A stretch of DNA of 64,000 nt, from positions 1-64,000 of IMG/VR virus record IMGVR_UViG_3300029922_000001; one strand, given 5' to 3'. Below are positions 7,460 to 59,876 of the stretch, piece by piece (position 1 is the first letter of the stretch; each line of letters begins with the position of its first letter). The notes under the pieces were generated by a model, which worked only from the letters and a program-made list of their open reading frames with translations, had not been told where the DNA came from and made no database searches. This stretch comes from a virus. Both the position numbers and the translations under genes were made by a program.

Positions 7460-7529
7460 CACAATATGGTGTTATGTTGACATACTTCCTGTGGTGGGAG
7501 AGATGTAAGTTCAATTCTTGCTGTTGTGA
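7460..7529 (+). tRNA. tRNA, anticodon probably GTG (His?)
   Basis: The acceptor stem CACAATA/TGTTGTG closes with A as discriminator, the D-stem is GTGT/ACAT, and the T-arm is GTAAG-TTCAATT-CTTGC. The anticodon arm is irregular: CTTCC/GGGAG leaves only a 6-base loop, TGTGGT. Taking the first T as position 33 gives GTG (7491-7493). CCA is not encoded; AC then CGAGATATA follows. Confidence 0.55.
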
Positions 7530-7541
7530 CCGAGATATATA

Positions 7542-7607
7542 CTAGGATGCCCAAGGTGGGAATTGCGGTTGTGACCCGCAATGACGGGATCGTTACCCGG
7601 TCCTAGA
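7542..7607 (+). tRNA. tRNA, anticodon GTG (His?)
   Basis: The acceptor CTAGGAT/GTCCTAG is paired throughout with one G-U pair, and A is the discriminator. A small D-arm (CCC/GGG) is followed by a 7-bp anticodon stem ATTGCGG/CCGCAAT with loop TTGTGAC, anticodon GTG (7571-7573). The T-arm is short (CGGG/CCCG) with the loop ATCGTTA instead of TTCRANY. It is the third unit in a row with a GTG loop. Confidence 0.5.
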
Positions 7608-7619
7608 CGAGAAAAAAAT

Positions 7620-7701
7620 GGCGTAGCGATGCAGTTGGAGAGGCATGACGGTCTGTAAAATCGTTCCTTCGGGTGAATCGGTTCGAATCCGATATGCGCC
7701 A
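7620..7701 (+). tRNA. tRNA-Tyr (GTA)
   Basis: Acceptor GGCGTAG/ATGCGCC (one mismatch at the inner end), anticodon stem ACGGT/ATCGT with loop CTGTAAA giving GTA, a class II variable arm with a CC-TTCG-GG tip, and the T-arm ATCGG-TTCGAAT-CCGAT. The discriminator A is followed by CCGAGATAAAAT, so CCA is not fully encoded. Confidence 0.85.
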
Positions 7702-7717
7702 CCGAGATAAAATAAAA

Positions 7718-7789
7718 CGGGATATAGCCAAGTGGTATGGCGCGAAGTTAGGGGCTTCGAGTTCTGGTGTTCGATTCACCATATCCCGA
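7718..7789 (+). tRNA. tRNA-Pro (AGG)
   Basis: Acceptor CGGGATA/TATCCCG, discriminator A, anticodon stem CGAAG/CTTCG with loop TTAGGGG, T-arm TGGTG-TTCGATT-CACCA. The anticodon reads AGG, a proline anticodon with A at position 34. That is rare in bacteria and would normally require deamination to inosine or relaxed pairing. The C1-G72 pair and discriminator A fit proline identity. Confidence 0.75.
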
Positions 7790-7800
7790 CGAGAATAAAT

Positions 7801-7880
7801 GGACGTATCGCATAGCGGCAATTGCGGAAGGCTGTAACCCTTCTCCTTCGGGTTCGTAAGTTCGAGTCTTACTGCGTCCA
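7801..7880 (+). tRNA. tRNA-Tyr (GTA), second copy
   Basis: Acceptor GGACGTA/TGCGTCC, anticodon stem GAAGG/CCTTC with loop CTGTAAC (GTA), a variable arm again with CCTTCGGG, and the T-arm GTAAG-TTCGAGT-CTTAC. The sequence differs from the first tRNA-Tyr, so it is not a recent tandem copy. Discriminator A, then CGAGATAAAT. Confidence 0.82.
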
Positions 7881-7890
7881 CGAGATAAAT

Positions 7891-7962
7891 CTAGTTGTAT
7901 ATCAATTGGTAGATTTCGCCGTTTGGATCGGTGAGGCTGGAGGTTCGAGTCCTCTCAACTAC
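7891..7962 (+). tRNA. tRNA-Pro (TGG)
   Basis: Anticodon stem CGCCG/CGGTG with loop TTTGGAT, anticodon TGG. D-arm ATC/GAT with a GG-containing loop, T-arm GGAGG-TTCGAGT-CCTCT. Acceptor CTAGTTG pairs with CAACTAC except at position 1-72 (C-C), so the first base of the CGAGATAAAAT motif seems to lie within the acceptor here. Confidence 0.68.
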
Positions 7963-7974
7963 GAGATAAAATAT

Positions 7975-24386: not shown

Positions 24387-24431
24387 AATTATTTTATACA
24401 TTATAAATACGTCAACAAAACCCTTTATAAT

Positions 24432-24520
24432 GAATTACTCTCACGAGTTTCTTGTTTCAATGACGCAACTATTGTTACAGTCTCCGCAAGCGTTTATTCG
24501 GATTATTCCAATCCTATACA
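24432..24520 (-). ncRNA. Omega RNA (reRNA) scaffold at the 3' end of tnpB
   Basis: Starting within the last tnpB codons, the minus strand reads GGATT-GGAAT-AATCC (hairpin), then AAACGC TTGCGGAG, then CATTGAAACAAGAAACTC, a small CTC-GTGA-GAG stem and GTAATTCA. This order parallels the orphan RNA at 47534-47645. TnpB nucleases use this 3' structure with the following bases as guide, which here would start TTATAAAGGG. Confidence 0.7.
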
Positions 24521-25627
24521 TCTTATTAAATTTTGATATTGAAATGCCATCTTTTTAATATTAATTGATGCATTGATATCTCTATCGTGTTTAATCCCGC
24601 AAGGACAATTCCATTCACGATCTGATAATTTAAGTTCTTTATTGATCGTTCCACATGAATTACACATTTTAGAACTTGGTTCAAATCTTCCAATATCAAG
24701 CAGATTTTTACCATTCCAATCGCATTTGTATTTAAGAAAATCAAAAAACATTCCCCAAGATACGTCCGAGATTGATTTAGCTAAGCAATGATTTTTTAAC
24801 ATGTTTTTAATTGAAAGGTCTTCAATACAAAAAGTAGTAGCTTGACTCTCACTTACTAATTTTGTTGTAACCTTATGTAAAAAATCACGTCTTTGATTCG
24901 ATATATGCTCATGAATATGAGCAATTCTTTTCTTTTGTTTAGATCCGTTAGATCCTTTTTTCATTTTACTAAACTTATACTGTTCATAAGCTAATTTTTT
25001 TTGAGATTTCTTAAAAAATCTAGGATTATCTATAACCATTCCATCAGAAGTTGTTAAAAATCGAGATAATCCAACATCAATTCCAATTGCATTTTCTATT
25101 TTAAGTTCAGCTTTATTTGGAATGTCAATATTATTTTCAACAAGAACAGAAGCATAATAATGACCAATAGCATTTTTGCTAATAGTTATGGATTTAATGA
25201 TTCCTTCGAATTTTCTATCTATTTTTATTTTAATATGTTTAATTTTAGGTAAAAACAATGTTCGTGTATTCCAATTAATAGAACAAGACTGAGGACATTG
25301 AAATGATTGTTTAGAATTGTGTTTTGATTTAAATTTAGGAAAACCTTTCTTTTCTCTAAAAAATCTAGTATATGCATTATCTAAATTTCTTAATGAAGCT
25401 TGTAGTGATTGTGCATTAACTTCCTTTAACCAAACATTATCTTCCTTTAATTGCTTTAAATTATTTATTAAATCAAAACAAGATAGTGTTTTACTTTCTT
25501 GTTGATATGCTTTAATTTTATTTTCTAATCCCCAGTTGTAAATAAATCTACAAGCCCCAAAATGTTTATTAAACATTTCTTCTTGTTCTTTGTTTGGATA
25601 TATTCTATATTTAAAACCTTTTAACAC
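24503..25627 (-). CDS. tnpB: TnpB RNA-guided nuclease (IS605 OrfB)
   Basis: A 374-residue TnpB of full length. The N-terminal helix-turn-helix region is FKYRIYPNKEQEEMF and FGACRFIYNWGL. The RuvC triad is present: D184 in GIDVGLSRF, E269 in FCIEDLSIKNM, and the aspartate in KHDRDINASINI. The zinc ribbon has CNSCG and CPCG. So an active RNA-guided DNA nuclease is predicted. It starts with GTG. It lacks a TnpA partner here; its guide RNA is encoded by its own 3' end, and a second scaffold occurs at 47.5 kb. Confidence 0.92.
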   Translation of the reverse strand: MLKGFKYRIYPNKEQEEMFNKHFGACRFIYNWGLENKIKAYQQESKTLSCFDLINNLKQLKEDNVWLKEVNAQSLQASLRNLDNAYTRFFREKKGFPKFKSKHNSKQSFQCPQSCSINWNTRTLFLPKIKHIKIKIDRKFEGIIKSITISKNAIGHYYASVLVENNIDIPNKAELKIENAIGIDVGLSRFLTTSDGMVIDNPRFFKKSQKKLAYEQYKFSKMKKGSNGSKQKKRIAHIHEHISNQRRDFLHKVTTKLVSESQATTFCIEDLSIKNMLKNHCLAKSISDVSWGMFFDFLKYKCDWNGKNLLDIGRFEPSSKMCNSCGTINKELKLSDREWNCPCGIKHDRDINASINIKKMAFQYQNLIRCIGLE

Positions 25628-47451: not shown

Positions 47452-47530
47452 TGGTTAAGAAGTCCTGTTTGCAAAAAAACACAAATATAATAAATATATC
47501 AGTGAATAAAATATTTCAAGACGTATAATA

Positions 47531-47675
47531 ATATTGTTATTGCCGAAAGGCGATAACATAGGGCTGGGATAGCCCAAATTAACGCCTTTGGAGTGTGTTC
47601 AACGGAACCACGATGAATTAGGAAGCCGCAATTGTGGTAGTTCACATATATAATTATTGTGTAAACAATAATTTT
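47531..47675 (+). ncRNA. Orphan omega-RNA-like gene (no tnpB)
   Basis: About 140 nt follow TATAAT (47524-47529). The RNA reads as a 10-bp hairpin TGTTATTGCC-GAAA-GGCGATAACA, then GGGCT-GGGAT-AGCCC, then AACGCCTTTGGAG, then CGATGAATTAGGAAGCC inside an ACCAC/GTGGT stem, then GTAGTTCA. Element for element this matches the scaffold at the tnpB 3' end (24432-24520: GGATT-GGAAT-AATCC, AACGCTTGCGGAG, CATTGAAACAAGAAACTC, GTAATTCA). Guide-like bases (CATATATAATTATTG) follow, then an AATTATTGT/ACAATAATT hairpin with TTTT. It may be a separate guide RNA for TnpB, a solo IS605 end, or a leader of the next gene. Confidence 0.65.
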
Positions 47676-47692: not shown

Positions 47693-48583
47693 ATGGTTAT
47701 ATGCCAAGACGACTTAGAATTAGCTATCATTAGATATCAAAATGCCCTTATAGAAAAAGATAAGCAAAGTATGAATGATTCATACAAGAAGATTTGTGAG
47801 ATTTACAAACCACAACTATATTTACAAACGTGGTTTAAAAAGTACGGTTGGCTTTACGACAGCATGGATGACTTTACACAAGAATATTTGGATGTTTTTT
47901 GCAAAGTCCTAAAAGAATGGAAGCCAAAAGAACAAAGAGGAAAGAGTCGATATAATGGCAAAGGACATTTTAAAAATTATTTCTGGGGATCATTATCAAA
48001 TTATTTTTCCAATGCTGTAAAAAAAGATTCAGCAGCCAAAAGAAATATTCCCTCTATTTGCCCATTATGTAGTGAATATGTTAATGTATTATCTACACAT
48101 TTAGTTGAAAAACATCATGAAATTTTATGGGGTAAATTACATGAACTTGGTATGGATATTAATGTAATTACGACTTGCCCATGTTGTAAATCATTCAAAC
48201 CCAGAAAGGCAGATTTAACCGTCAATGAACAATTAAGACATCATTTATTAAAATTCCACACTAATTTAATATTCGAAAAATTCAAAGAAGATTATCCAGG
48301 TCATGTGACTATTTCCCCAAGAATAACCTCTATTTTTATTGAGTCCGATAATGACGATGATAACATTTGTCTTTATGATGTCACTCCGAAAAGTAACAAT
48401 AAATTAGATTACCTATTGCAGCAAAATCTAAGCGACATACAAGTTAAAATTGTGGAAAAAATACTAAATGGTTCAACCAACATTAAAAAATATTATTTAG
48501 AACTCCAATGTAGTGAAGATGAATTTAATGATGCTTTAGATGGCTTGAAAGATGCATTAATGATCAGTGGTATTTATAATTGA
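47693..48583 (+). CDS. Sigma-like protein with zinc-finger insertion
   Basis: A 296-residue protein. The first 120 residues resemble sigma region 2: SMDDFTQEYLDVFCKVLKEW then GHFKNYFWGSLSNYFSN. Two zinc fingers follow (CPLCSEYVNVLSTHLVEKHH and CPCCKSFKPRKADLT...HHLLKFH). A C-terminal helical segment (LSDIQVKIVEKILNGSTNIK) could act as region 4. A phage-specific transcription factor is likely but not certain. A strong GGAGG precedes the ATG, after the orphan RNA. Confidence 0.55.
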   Translation: MVICQDDLELAIIRYQNALIEKDKQSMNDSYKKICEIYKPQLYLQTWFKKYGWLYDSMDDFTQEYLDVFCKVLKEWKPKEQRGKSRYNGKGHFKNYFWGSLSNYFSNAVKKDSAAKRNIPSICPLCSEYVNVLSTHLVEKHHEILWGKLHELGMDINVITTCPCCKSFKPRKADLTVNEQLRHHLLKFHTNLIFEKFKEDYPGHVTISPRITSIFIESDNDDDNICLYDVTPKSNNKLDYLLQQNLSDIQVKIVEKILNGSTNIKKYYLELQCSEDEFNDALDGLKDALMISGIYN

Positions 48584-49527: not shown

Positions 49528-52500
49528 ATGCAACATGATACGAAAAATAATAAGATGAAAACCATATTTGAAGATTCATTTTCGGAAGAAGTTTGGGCAT
49601 CTACATATAAAGACTATAGAGATAACAGTGTAGATGATACGTTTATGCGAGTAGCAACAGCTATCGCTTCAGTTGAAGAAACTAAAGAATTAAAAGAGTC
49701 TTGGGGAGATTCTTTTTTTGATTTGTTACAAAATTTTAAAGGTTCTGCTGGTGGTAGAATTTTATCAAATGCTGGAACTGAATGGGGTGGCACCACTTTA
49801 ATGAATTGTTTCGTAGGTCCAAAAGCAACTTACGATCAAGACTCTTTAGATGGCATTTTAAAAGTACTTAACAATCAATGTAAAACCTTAAAGTCCGAAG
49901 GTGGTTGGGGAATGAACTTTTCATTCATCCGTCCAAGAGGCGCTTTCATTAACGGAATTGGTGTTGAGTCACCTGGTTCTGTTACTTACATGGAACTTTT
50001 TGATAAGAGTTCAGCTTTAATCACTAGTGGTTCAGGCTTAGATACTAAAAATAAAAAAGCTAAAGGTAAAATCCGTAAAGGCGCTATGATGGGCGTTATG
50101 GATGTTTGGCATCCTGATATTGAAGAATTTATTTCAGCTAAATTAACACCTGGTAGATTATCTAAGTTTAATATTTCCGTAAACTGTTCTGATGAATTCA
50201 TGGAAAAGGTTATCTTCGTTAAGGAACTTAGACTAAGTAAGGCAGATCCTGCCCTTATCGCAGAATATGATAAATGGCATTTGGAATTTCCAGATACCAA
50301 ACATGAAAAATATAAAGAAATTTGGAATGGTGATATCAATTATTGGAAGTCTTTTGGCTACCCTGTTAATATCATAAAGACAGTTTCTGTTACAGAATTA
50401 TGGAATCAAATCATCAAATCCACATATACACGTAATGACCCAGGTGTTTTGTTCTTAGATAGAGCAAATGCAACACACTGTTGGAATTATGGAGGTATTG
50501 AAGCACTCATTAAGGCTACTAATCCATGCGTTACTGAGAATACTTGGATAAATACTTCTAATGGTGCCAAACAAGTAAAACAATTATTAAATGATCCATA
50601 TATTGCTATAGTAAATGGGTTACCATATAATGCAACTAGTTTTTGGGAAACTGGAACTAAAAAGGTTTTCAAATTAAATACAAAACATGGATTTAATATT
50701 GAAGTAACCGATAATCATGTTATCAAAACCACTAAAGGTGACAAGCAATTAAAAGACATAAATATTGGAGACAATATTTTGATATCAAATCATAGAAATC
50801 ACACATGGGTAGGGCAGGGAAATTTCAATAAAGGGTGGTTAATCGGTTCTTTAATTGGTGACGGTCACTTGCTTAGTAAAACATCTAAACTAGAATATTG
50901 GGGTCAAGAAAAAGATATAATGCTTCAATATGCATCACAGCTTATACATAAAGAATTTGACGTTAGAAGTGATTTGGGATCTGGTAATTTATCAGGTAAA
51001 ACGGCACAAGAAAGAGATATTACTTCTTTGAGTTGCACTAATTTATTGAATTATGCACATGAACTGAATATTGATAATGATAAATCGTTAAACAATAGTG
51101 ATATTGAAAAAACATCATATGATTTTTATTGTGGATTTTTATCTGGATGGTTTGATGCTGATGGATCAGTACAAGGCAATCACAAAAAAGGTGTTTCTGT
51201 TAGATTATCTTCATCAATTCAAGAAAACCTTTTAGTTGCACAACGTATGTTAAGCAGATTAGGAATTATTTCAAAAATTTCATTACGAAGAAGCGAACAA
51301 GAAAAATTATTGCCAAATGGCAAAAGTGGAAGTTCATATTATACGTGTAAAGCACAATATGAACTTATAATTAGCCAAGATAATATTTCGGTTTTTAGAA
51401 ATATTATTGGATTCAAGCAACCATCAAAACAAAATCACTTAAACATTTTATTGAATACATATACTAGGAATTTCAATAAACAAAAATTTTATAGTGAAGT
51501 TACTTCTATAGAATATATAGGAGAAGAAAAAGTTTATGATTGTACTGTTGATATTGTTCATGAGTTTTGTGCAAACGGTATAAGAGTTCATAATTGTGGT
51601 GAACAATGTTTACCTTTCGGTGCTGTTTGTAACTTATTCAGCTTTAACTTAACTCAGTTTATTGATGAAGTAAACAATTGCTTCGATCTAGAAAAGCTTC
51701 AAAGATATGTTGCTATTGCTGTTAGATTCTTGGATGATATTAATTCATATACTAACGCACCATTACCTGAATATATCGAATCAATTCGCAAGAGAAGAAG
51801 AATTGGATTGGGTGTTCTTGGTTGGGGAAGTGCATTATATATGCTTAAAACTAGATTTGGTTCTGAAAAGGCTGAAGCTATTAAAGAAAAATTAATGCGT
51901 ACATTCACACATGCTGCTGTTAAGGCATCTATTGATTTGGCTAAAGAAAGAGGTATGTTTGCTGGTTGTGATCCAGAAAAACATGCAAATCATCCATTCT
52001 GGCAACAGATCCAACTTGACGATGATACTCTTAGCGAAATGAGACAATACGGAATTAGAAACTCTGCTCTATTCTCTATTCAACCTACAGGTAATACTTC
52101 TGTTCTATGTAACATCGTTTCTGGTGGTCTAGAACCTGTGTTTATGCCTGAGTATATCAGAACAGTTATTGTCAACTCAGTGCCAAATCATATTAAAAAT
52201 GTAACACCCAAATATTGGGAAGGCGAATTCTTCGAAACATCTTTGTTCAAATTTACAAAAGAAGGTGGAGAACAAATTCTTAGAGGCGTTGATACTGGTG
52301 GAGTTGTTTATAAGATTGACAAAAATAGAGGTTTAACCAGAGAAGTATTATGTGAAGATTATGCTGTTAGACACCTTAAACTCAAGGGTGAATGGGATGC
52401 ATCAGCAGATTGGGCATGTACTACAGATAGTTTAACTGTTAATGACCATCTTACAGACATGAAGGGTTTTGGAAAGTGGATAGATTCATCAATGAGCAAG

Positions 52501-53163
52501 ACTGTTAATGTTCCAAATGATTATCCATTTGAAGATTTCGAAAATGTCTATCTAGATGCTTACAAAACAGGCTGTCTTAAAGGAATTACAACTTATCGTG
52601 CTGGTACAATGACTAATGTCTTGGCTGCAAAATCTGAGAAAGATGAAGAAATTGAATTTAAGACTTCTCCTATCATTAAGCGTCCTAAAGAATTAAAAGC
52701 GAAAGTATTCCATCCAACAGCTAAAGGTGGTAAATTCTACGTTGCAGTTGGGTTATTGAATGATAAACCTTTTGAAGTTTTCGTTGGATTAAACACCACA
52801 AATGTTATTCCAATTAAGATGGATGATGCCTCTATTGTGAAAAGATCCAAGGGAGTGTATGATTTATGTGCAAATTCCTTCTGCTATCCCTTAAATACAC
52901 ACTCTGACGCTAACGTTGATGCATTGACACGTATGGTAAGTTTATCTTTGCACTCTGGAGCTAGTTTAGCTCGTGTTGTCGAACAACTAGAAAGAACTAA
53001 TGGAGATATGTTTGTCTTTGCTAAAGTTCTTGCAAGAACTTTAAAGAGATTCATTCCAGATGGTACTACTTTATCTGAAGAATGTCCAGCTTGTGGTGAA
53101 GCGTTAATTCGCCAAGAAGGTTGTAAACGCTGTACTTCTTGTGATTATAGCGTCTGCGGTTAA
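49528..53163 (+). CDS. nrdJ: Class II ribonucleotide reductase with intein
   Basis: A 1211-residue precursor; the spliced enzyme would be about 855 residues. It reduces ribonucleotides with adenosylcobalamin. Active-site segments are TLMNCFVG (redox Cys), FLDRANATHCWN, NPCGEQCLPFGAVCN (radical-site segment, formed after splicing), and the class II signature SMSKTVNVPNDYPFEDFE with GCLKGITTYRAGT. The C-terminus has CPACGEALIR and CTSCDYSVCG, a zinc/redox tail. The intein occupies residues 334-689. It is preceded by AAGGAG and ended by a perfect terminator. Confidence 0.93.
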   Translation: MQHDTKNNKMKTIFEDSFSEEVWASTYKDYRDNSVDDTFMRVATAIASVEETKELKESWGDSFFDLLQNFKGSAGGRILSNAGTEWGGTTLMNCFVGPKATYDQDSLDGILKVLNNQCKTLKSEGGWGMNFSFIRPRGAFINGIGVESPGSVTYMELFDKSSALITSGSGLDTKNKKAKGKIRKGAMMGVMDVWHPDIEEFISAKLTPGRLSKFNISVNCSDEFMEKVIFVKELRLSKADPALIAEYDKWHLEFPDTKHEKYKEIWNGDINYWKSFGYPVNIIKTVSVTELWNQIIKSTYTRNDPGVLFLDRANATHCWNYGGIEALIKATNPCVTENTWINTSNGAKQVKQLLNDPYIAIVNGLPYNATSFWETGTKKVFKLNTKHGFNIEVTDNHVIKTTKGDKQLKDINIGDNILISNHRNHTWVGQGNFNKGWLIGSLIGDGHLLSKTSKLEYWGQEKDIMLQYASQLIHKEFDVRSDLGSGNLSGKTAQERDITSLSCTNLLNYAHELNIDNDKSLNNSDIEKTSYDFYCGFLSGWFDADGSVQGNHKKGVSVRLSSSIQENLLVAQRMLSRLGIISKISLRRSEQEKLLPNGKSGSSYYTCKAQYELIISQDNISVFRNIIGFKQPSKQNHLNILLNTYTRNFNKQKFYSEVTSIEYIGEEKVYDCTVDIVHEFCANGIRVHNCGEQCLPFGAVCNLFSFNLTQFIDEVNNCFDLEKLQRYVAIAVRFLDDINSYTNAPLPEYIESIRKRRRIGLGVLGWGSALYMLKTRFGSEKAEAIKEKLMRTFTHAAVKASIDLAKERGMFAGCDPEKHANHPFWQQIQLDDDTLSEMRQYGIRNSALFSIQPTGNTSVLCNIVSGGLEPVFMPEYIRTVIVNSVPNHIKNVTPKYWEGEFFETSLFKFTKEGGEQILRGVDTGGVVYKIDKNRGLTREVLCEDYAVRHLKLKGEWDASADWACTTDSLTVNDHLTDMKGFGKWIDSSMSKTVNVPNDYPFEDFENVYLDAYKTGCLKGITTYRAGTMTNVLAAKSEKDEEIEFKTSPIIKRPKELKAKVFHPTAKGGKFYVAVGLLNDKPFEVFVGLNTTNVIPIKMDDASIVKRSKGVYDLCANSFCYPLNTHSDANVDALTRMVSLSLHSGASLARVVEQLERTNGDMFVFAKVLARTLKRFIPDGTTLSEECPACGEALIRQEGCKRCTSCDYSVCG
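50527..51594 (+). mobile_element. Intein with LAGLIDADG endonuclease in NrdJ
   Basis: 356 residues in frame between NP and CGEQ of the conserved RNR active site. It starts with Cys (CVTENTWINTSNG), has the block B histidine in VTDNHVIKT, two LAGLIDADG helices (WLIGSLIGDGHLL and GFLSGWFDADGSVQ), and ends VHEFCANGIRVHN before Cys. All splicing residues (C1, His, terminal HN, C+1) are present, so self-splicing and homing should be active. Confidence 0.93.
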
Positions 53164-56257: not shown

Positions 56258-56292
56258 TTAACGCCCACTACATTAATATTTTATTGTATAAA

Positions 56293-56937
56293 ATGTTTTG
56301 TAGTGGGTGGTCTAATTTGAATTTATCCGAAGAAGAAGTTTTAGTTTACGTAAGACGTGTGAAAAAAGGCGATGGCGATGCATTTAGAAAGGTTGAACAT
56401 GCATTCAAACAAGAAATAGATAGAATGGCAAGAGAATTTTATCTGCAAGGTGCCAAAGAAGGAATTTTTGACGAAGACATAAAAGCAATCATATTGGGTG
56501 CCTTGTGGAAAGCCTGTATGGACTTTAAAGAAGAATATAAGTCTACCTTTAAAAGTTTTGCAAATTTATGTTTTAAGAGAAATGCGATTACTGCAATTAT
56601 TAATGCAAAATCCAGAAAACACGACATTTTAACTCGCGCTCATTCATTAGATAGAGCGTCACATATTGACGACGAAGGGGAACAATCTCTAGCAGAAATT
56701 TTACCAGATACTAGACCTAGTATCTTAGATGAAATTATAAGACAAGAAGAATTCGACACAAAATTTGAAGCATTAAGAAGCATTTGTACTCCATTAGAAA
56801 ACGATGTATTAACATTATATTCCGAATCTGAATCCTATAATAAAATAGCCAAAGACATTCAAAGAAACGCCAAAGCAGTAGATAATTCAATCACTAGAAT
56901 CAAGAAGAAAGCCTTACTGATTGAAGTCGAAGTATAA
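56293..56937 (+). CDS. Sigma-70 family factor (SigH/ECF-like)
   Basis: A protein of about 214 residues. Region 2: VRRVKKGDGDAFRKVEHAFK, GALWKACMDFKEEYKSTFKS and FANLCFKRNAITAIIN. A linker with SLDRASHIDDEGEQSLAEIL follows, then region 4: TPLENDVLTLYSESESYNKIA plus AKAVDNSITRIKKKAL. So it should direct RNA polymerase to phage promoters. The start is uncertain; the ATG at 56293 is adjacent to a TATAAA and a TTG start is possible. It lies between dnaX and dnaN. Confidence 0.75.
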   Translation: MFCSGWSNLNLSEEEVLVYVRRVKKGDGDAFRKVEHAFKQEIDRMAREFYLQGAKEGIFDEDIKAIILGALWKACMDFKEEYKSTFKSFANLCFKRNAITAIINAKSRKHDILTRAHSLDRASHIDDEGEQSLAEILPDTRPSILDEIIRQEEFDTKFEALRSICTPLENDVLTLYSESESYNKIAKDIQRNAKAVDNSITRIKKKALLIEVEV

Positions 56938-59270: not shown

Positions 59271-59876
59271 ATGAGTAGTTACAGTGTGAATGAAAATTAT
59301 GAAAATATCCAAGAGCTAGTAACGAAAATACAATCAGGTGATAATTCCGCTTTATATGATGTTTTTAATTTTTATCAACCACTTATTAAAGCCTCAATTT
59401 ATAGATGTATCAAAAAGGAACCTCAACTACGCTCATACAGTGAAGATATGTTTGGTGAATCCTTATTGGTTATGCAAGACTTAATTAAAGATTATAATTC
59501 TGAACTATCGTATTTTTCTTATTACCTCACTGTTCGATTTGATTATTATTTATTGTCTAAATGTAAGAAAACATATCTTGGAATTAACACTTCCGGTAAT
59601 GGGATCATTGAATTACCTATCAATGAAGATGCTTTGCAAATTTCTCATGATCCTTTTAATCGTAATGAATTCAAAAGAGAAATAGAATCTTGTATAAGTA
59701 AATTAAGCCCAGATCAGCAGATGGTTATTGAATTATATTTTTACAGAGAGCTTACACAAGCGGAAGCTGCAAAGATAATGAACATAAGCCAAGCCGCATT
59801 TAGTAAAAAATTACAAAAAACCTTGAAGGATTTAAAGGAATTGTATGTAAAATTTTCAAATAATTTTTCAGATTAG
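59271..59876 (+). CDS. Sigma-70 family factor
   Basis: A 201-residue protein. Region 2: KIQSGDNSALYDVFNFYQPLI, EDMFGESLLVMQDLI, YNSELSYFSYYLTVRFDYYL. Region 4: SKLSPDQQMVIELYFYRELT with AEAAKIMNISQAAFSKKLQK as helix-turn-helix. It is the third sigma-like protein in the window. TATAAA (59259-59264) ends 6 nt before the ATG. It may switch expression to the packaging genes that follow. Confidence 0.85.
   Translation: MSSYSVNENYENIQELVTKIQSGDNSALYDVFNFYQPLIKASIYRCIKKEPQLRSYSEDMFGESLLVMQDLIKDYNSELSYFSYYLTVRFDYYLLSKCKKTYLGINTSGNGIIELPINEDALQISHDPFNRNEFKREIESCISKLSPDQQMVIELYFYRELTQAEAAKIMNISQAAFSKKLQKTLKDLKELYVKFSNNFSD

Follow-up and report, generated by a model that had tools for sequence, protein, structure and literature searches.

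The window analysed here is the first 64 kb of G000, a 441,498-base record of a giant virus of bacteria, and in a 241-base gap between recJ and a sigma-like gene it carries, on the plus strand at 47536-47675, a feature built around an omegaRNA scaffold that lacks a tnpB. This scaffold is referred to as solo 1, and a second tnpB-less scaffold of the same record, at G000 355890-355979, as solo 2. The parts of the locus are listed in Table 1. A sequence-only reading had described an orphan guide RNA consisting of a hairpin with its loop, conserved blocks, a closing stem and a 3' end, and all of these parts are present in the order claimed. The GAAA-capped hairpin that it placed directly at the predicted start was also recovered, with 7 nt separating it from the end of a TATAAT box; no convincing -35 box was found upstream of that box. 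Its terminator-like 3' hairpin stood as a hairpin but not as a terminator, since it is A+U-rich, ends in only about four U and was not called by the terminator scan. Judged from its sequence, this hairpin would be a weak terminator at best, which makes read-through from solo 1 into the sigma-like gene likely.

Table 1. Features of the solo 1 locus, the resident tnpB and the two predicted guides (window coordinates unless G000 is given)
Feature	Position	Strand	Remarks
Resident tnpB	24503-25627	-	IS200/IS605 TnpB by Pfam
tnpB-linked omegaRNA scaffold	24431-24520	-	R1 78.7 bits
recJ	45715-47451		gene before the gap holding solo 1
Candidate -10 box TATAAT	47524-47529	+	predicted start ~47536, from sequence
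Solo 1 5' hairpin, GUUAUUGCC-GAAA-GGCGAUAAC	47536-47557	+	flush with scaffold; fold z = -4.5
Solo 1 omegaRNA scaffold	47555-47644	+	match to R1 positions 1-101
Solo 1 AUAGGG plus stem 1	47558-47575	+	GGGAU loop
Solo 1 stem 1	47561-47575	+	loop GGAU (47567-47570) pairs with 3'-end GUUC (pseudoknot)
Solo 1 AACGCCTTTGGAG	47581-47593	+	between stem 1 and stem 3
Solo 1 stem 3, GUG-U-GUUC / GAAC-CAC	47593-47611	+	compensated relative to tnpB-linked and solo 2 copies
Solo 1 GATGAATTAGGAAG	47612-47625	+	between stem 3 and stem 4
Solo 1 stem 4	47625-47638	+	subterminal closing stem
Solo 1 scaffold 3' end, GTAGTTCAC	47637-47645	+
Guide 1, ATATATAATTATTGTG	47646-47661	+	predicted 16 nt; position by analogy with ISDra2
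Solo 1 3' hairpin, AATTATTG-TGTAAA-CAATAATT-TT	47652-47675	+	A+U-rich, -6.4 kcal/mol; overlaps guide 1
Sigma-like gene	47693-48583	+	cysteine-rich (zinc-finger-like) insert; kept in many related phages without omegaRNA
Guide 2, TGGGCACCCATGCGAA	G000 355981-355996		position by analogy with ISDra2

Elsewhere in the window, two further sigma-factor-like genes (56284-56937 and 59271-59876) suggest a multi-sigma transcription programme. A ribonucleotide reductase-like gene at 49528-53163 contains an apparent intein (CVTENTWINT ... VHNC), and a cluster of tRNA genes occupies 7460-7964, where ARAGORN and Rfam concur on only some of the calls.

The identity of the scaffold was assessed with a covariance model, R1, built from 11 tnpB-linked omegaRNAs, namely that of G000 itself and ten from virus contigs found via the TnpB protein, with the solo 1 locus excluded from training. 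In this check, which had been set beforehand, solo 1 scored 66.3 bits (E = 2.5e-15), a value to be read beside that of the tnpB-linked RNA in Table 1, and R1 found no third match within the 64-kb window. On this sequence evidence, solo 1 is near certain to be a full-length TnpB omegaRNA scaffold. An Rfam search at the gathering threshold reported only tRNAs; the best relevant family, RAGATH-18, a guide RNA of TnpB of the IS607-type reRNA kind (PMC11061315), reached 24.6 bits at 47585-47624, below its gathering threshold of 44.9. BLAST of the solo 1 locus against named phages returned no real relatives, and a search of viral contigs for the exact scaffold patterns gave zero matches.

Structurally, the scaffold maps one-to-one onto the solved omegaRNA of ISDra2, including stems 1 to 4 and the pseudoknot. 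In both, the stem-1 loop and a UUC at the 3' end form a pseudoknot, stems 2 to 4 are present and the guide is positioned directly after the scaffold, while solo 1 differs in having no tnpB upstream and a GAAA-capped hairpin in place of the tnpB-overlapping 5' extension (PMC10097598). The pseudoknot is absent from R1, yet across 38 scaffolds about 95% of its cells are paired and both sides covary, with variants such as GAAC/GUUC, GAAU/AUUC, GAAG/CUUC and GAGC/GCUC; in these scaffolds, 94.1% of cells pair, compared with 63.6% in shuffles. Both solos form it with four standard pairs (G-C, G-U, A-U and U-G), two of which are wobble pairs. Stem 2 forms only 3 of its 4-5 pairs, and stem 1 of solo 2 carries two mismatches. 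Among other tnpB 3' ends, those in L020, L023, L026, L032 and L046 have the omegaRNA terminus AATCAC and not GTAGTTCA. By eye only, L046 appears to show block-wise covariation of the pseudoknot, its stem-1 loop GGUGA being complementary to UCAC, and so does L044, with GGGAA/UUCCC.

The claim that the guide scaffold stands without a tnpB frame was borne out, as tblastn with ten TnpB queries detected no TnpB in the surrounding 3.1 kb. Solo 1 accordingly lacks the overlap with a tnpB 3' end that is usual for omegaRNAs, and it lies about 22 kb from the resident tnpB. The resident protein aligns with ISDra2-type TnpB and retains the triad D184/E269/D350, which is invariant in nine relatives; its earlier description as catalytically intact is thus consistent with the residues that it keeps. 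Two other TnpBs of G000, at 177 kb and 283 kb, were considered as partners of the solos and set aside because their 3' ends are unlike the scaffold. No Y1 transposase (TnpA) was found in G000-G003 and G014, the 441-kb G000 record being possibly incomplete. A mini-element comprises a left-end hairpin and a right end and is mobilised by TnpA; no transposon left end was seen upstream of solo 1, which for this reason is not a complete mini-element.

Pursuit of the solo guide uncovered a second tnpB-less scaffold in the same genome, at about 355.9 kb. Solo 2 was first spotted by pattern and BLAST, before R1, and with an R1 E value of 3.4e-11 it is the sole further tnpB-less scaffold that the model detects genome-wide. 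The two solos have GGGATAG and ACGATGAATTARGAAG in common, neither of which occurs in the tnpB-linked RNA of G000, and in both a GAAA-capped hairpin is fused directly to AUAGGG. No GAAA hairpin of this type was present in the tnpB-linked scaffolds tested alongside. The stem length of the solo 1 hairpin was reached by none of 1000 shuffles; the six pairs of the solo 2 hairpin (UUUGUU-GAAA-AACAAA) were matched in about 11% of shuffles, so that this hairpin is convincing mainly through its common loop and position.

Solo 2 is embedded in approximately 1.5 kb of non-coding DNA (L001 1016-2510; G000:355015-356509), preceded by a 12/12 sigma-70 promoter (L001 987-1015). This region contains four tandem pseudoknot-like units, TTCTCGAAAA...ACCGAG, together with modules of a repeated hairpin and ACGAGATTT. 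Searches of the 1.5 kb with Rfam, tRNA/tmRNA tools and BLAST identified no relatives, and a simple folding prediction for the first 435 nt was no stabler than shuffles. Two matches to the tandem-pseudoknot motif in other viruses were dismissed as chance occurrences in coding sequence.

A scan with R1 of 38 records carrying a related TnpB, G000 included, showed that two phages other than G000, namely G014 and G008, have clear tnpB-less omegaRNAs. G014 (64 kb) possesses two bare scaffolds, L093 (G014:45796) and L101 (G014:48775), which are followed by differing sequences and whose similarity to the tnpB-linked RNA of the same phage begins and stops at the scaffold borders. The guide of one of them, ATGAAAAACAAAATTA, matches 15 of 16 bases at the element-free orthologous site of two relatives, one of which is a contig from the same metagenome, and both relatives retain the downstream gene without the scaffold. 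Because this guide sits on a conserved gene start, the match is a requirement of homing and not proof of it, and protein conservation alone could be its source. The scaffold of G008, at G008:43316 (L108 1317-1445), belongs to a tnpB-deleted mini-element, which we take to exemplify the PATE/MITE type of IS200/IS605 derivative; its left end is 90% and its right end 79% identical to the tnpB element of G008 itself, and the phage has a TnpA (Y1 transposase) gene. It resembles the solos in being an omegaRNA without tnpB, whereas the solos of G000 and G014 lack both the left end and a phage TnpA. A weaker tnpB-less scaffold was also detected in G049 and G047 (E about 0.005 and 0.002).

The divergence among the copies bears on whether solo 1 is a remnant. 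Relative to the tnpB-linked copy, from which it may in part have diverged before tnpB was lost, solo 1 differs at 24 of 48 paired bases and still forms 22 of 24 standard pairs, a count resting on a structure-fitted alignment that is biased toward pairs; simulation yielded a mean of 10.5 standard pairs, and 0 of 5000 runs reached the observed number. Against solo 2, with the same alignment bias, solo 1 differs at 16 of 48 paired bases and keeps 20 standard pairs out of 24 (simulated mean 13.3; 0/5000). Since its pairs hold although half of the paired bases differ, solo 1 is unlike a decayed end, and simple decay is unlikely on the evidence of the sequence. The alternative raised at the outset, a decayed tnpB end with no conservation in related phages, is therefore split: decay is made unlikely by the retained pairs, and the lack of conservation is confirmed by absence from related loci.

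A different form of relic would be a right end left after loss of the tnpB element, too young to have decayed and without function. Related loci that retain the sigma-like gene do lack the scaffold, the former tnpB stop codon is kept in ATAGGGCTGGGATAG (I G L G stop), which fits a derivative, and bare right-end hairpins without the remainder do occur, for instance at G002:74837. Against such a relic stand the pairing kept while one third to one half of the paired bases differ, the novel 5' hairpin common to two copies, and the truncation exactly at the scaffold boundary in the two solos of G000 and the two of G014. This explanation is accordingly judged unlikely, at roughly one chance in four.

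The gene downstream offers another possible role. The protein encoded from 47693 has no sequence matches in Pfam, PHROG or PDB, and its predicted fold is most similar to sigma factors, with weak and non-significant matches. The order of recJ and the sigma-like gene is kept in the giant relatives G001-G003, whose RecJ proteins are 47-56% identical, and their intergenic regions contain no scaffold. R1 detected nothing near the sigma-like gene in 34 other viral loci (G001-G003 included), and when 25 of these 34 records were scanned whole, the sole clear match was tnpB-linked. With 34 such loci free of an adjacent omegaRNA, solo 1 appears to be a late addition in its lineage, and the earlier suggestion that it regulates the sigma-like gene loses weight. 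Solo 1 could act as a leader RNA controlling 47693, either because TnpB binds or processes the 5' UTR or by means of a hairpin near the RBS: it lies immediately in front of the gene in the same orientation, with 48 nt left to the start codon, its weak terminator makes read-through likely, and TnpB is able to process scaffold-bearing RNA (PMC10278001). Its absence beside the gene in all the other loci, several of which have their own promoter-like boxes in a short intergenic region, and the lack of a comparable gene behind solo 2 make such a leader improbable.

Candidate targets were sought for both guides. Within G000-G003 only weak matches were obtained, and those at G001:134474 and G000:109389, in coding sequence, were rejected as looking like chance. 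Guide 1 matches the orthologous gap of G002 at 14 of 16 bases, or at 18 of 20 once the TCAC before it is counted, in A+T-rich sequence; dinucleotide shuffles of this gap reach 14/16 at a frequency of 0.0002 before correction for the 25 gaps examined. G002 was rejected as an empty site for solo 1 because the joined flanks of solo 1 do not align there, and the match is for that reason counted as suggestive only. Aiming at host or rival-phage DNA, or TldR-like short-seed gene control, in place of the element's own empty site is very improbable: phage TldR repressors do rely on guide RNAs and on short seeds (PMC13418256), and the sequences downstream of solo 1 and solo 2 differ, but an exact search with guide 2 (18 bases) came up empty in viral contigs and gave three bacterial hits across 84,980 genomes, a number near the chance expectation, and the resident TnpB, with its triad kept, is not nuclease-dead.

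Taken as a whole, a stand-alone guide RNA acting in trans, with homing to or retention at its own site, is the best explanation and has a slightly better than even chance of being right. The segment from 47536 to about 47675 would derive from a tnpB right end that lost everything upstream of the scaffold. The ISDra2 omegaRNA needs no sequence upstream of its scaffold for cleavage (PMC10097598), so solo 1 holds all that TnpB should need, and this sufficiency favours a stand-alone RNA that loads in trans. With the TATAAT box 7 bases ahead, the RNA would begin with the GAAA-capped hairpin, which may shield the new 5' end; transcription would run toward the sigma-like gene, and a fraction of transcripts probably continue into it. 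The RNA is predicted to adopt the ISDra2-type fold with its pseudoknot and to load onto the intact-triad TnpB from 24.5 kb, and its use in trans appears fairly probable from this analysis. Its guide would be the local flank, which by ordinary TnpB logic would make the enzyme cut copies of this site that lack the element, here in co-infecting relatives; gene-drive behaviour has been reported for IS200/IS605 TnpB in plasmids (PMC11870625). Solo 1 would then be a guide-only homing or retention element, although own-site targeting is proposed tentatively, as somewhat short of probable. Transcription of solo 1, TnpB loading, cutting and the identity of what is cut are steps that we infer.

IscB omegaRNAs without an adjacent nuclease gene were reportedly described in Ktedonobacter racemifer by Altae-Tran in 2021 and thought to act in trans. 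That case belongs to the IscB/Cas9 lineage on a bacterial chromosome, whereas solo 1 belongs to the TnpB/Cas12 lineage in a giant phage and has an added 5' hairpin. The guide RNAs of phage TldR resemble solo 1 in that a TnpB-derived guide is kept outside transposition (PMC13418256). TldR, however, is nuclease-dead and lies beside its guide RNA, while in G000 the solo RNA is 22 kb away and the TnpB triad is kept, which means that G000 does not carry a TldR system. The impression that a solo guide was new proved only partly right, as other phages also have tnpB-less omegaRNAs and an Oscillibacter locus whose tldR is frameshifted has been proposed to supply guide RNAs in trans (PMC13418256). What is new is that a giant phage keeping an intact TnpB also carries dispersed guide RNAs which lack a tnpB and have gained a 5' hairpin, and that tnpB-free guide RNAs recur in another phage.

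These observations suggest that guide RNAs scattered over the genome may let a single TnpB act on several targets. It is possible, if less than probable, that some phages combine one intact TnpB with scattered tnpB-free guide genes bearing different guides, units of approximately 110-140 bp that would spread or persist as TnpB cuts element-free sites in co-infecting phages. If action in trans is true, one TnpB would be programmable by several dispersed guide genes. Such an arrangement, in a phage in which no TnpA was found, would lie between single-guide transposon nucleases and multi-guide systems resembling CRISPR, and it would define a very small type of homing element, consisting of a guide RNA alone.
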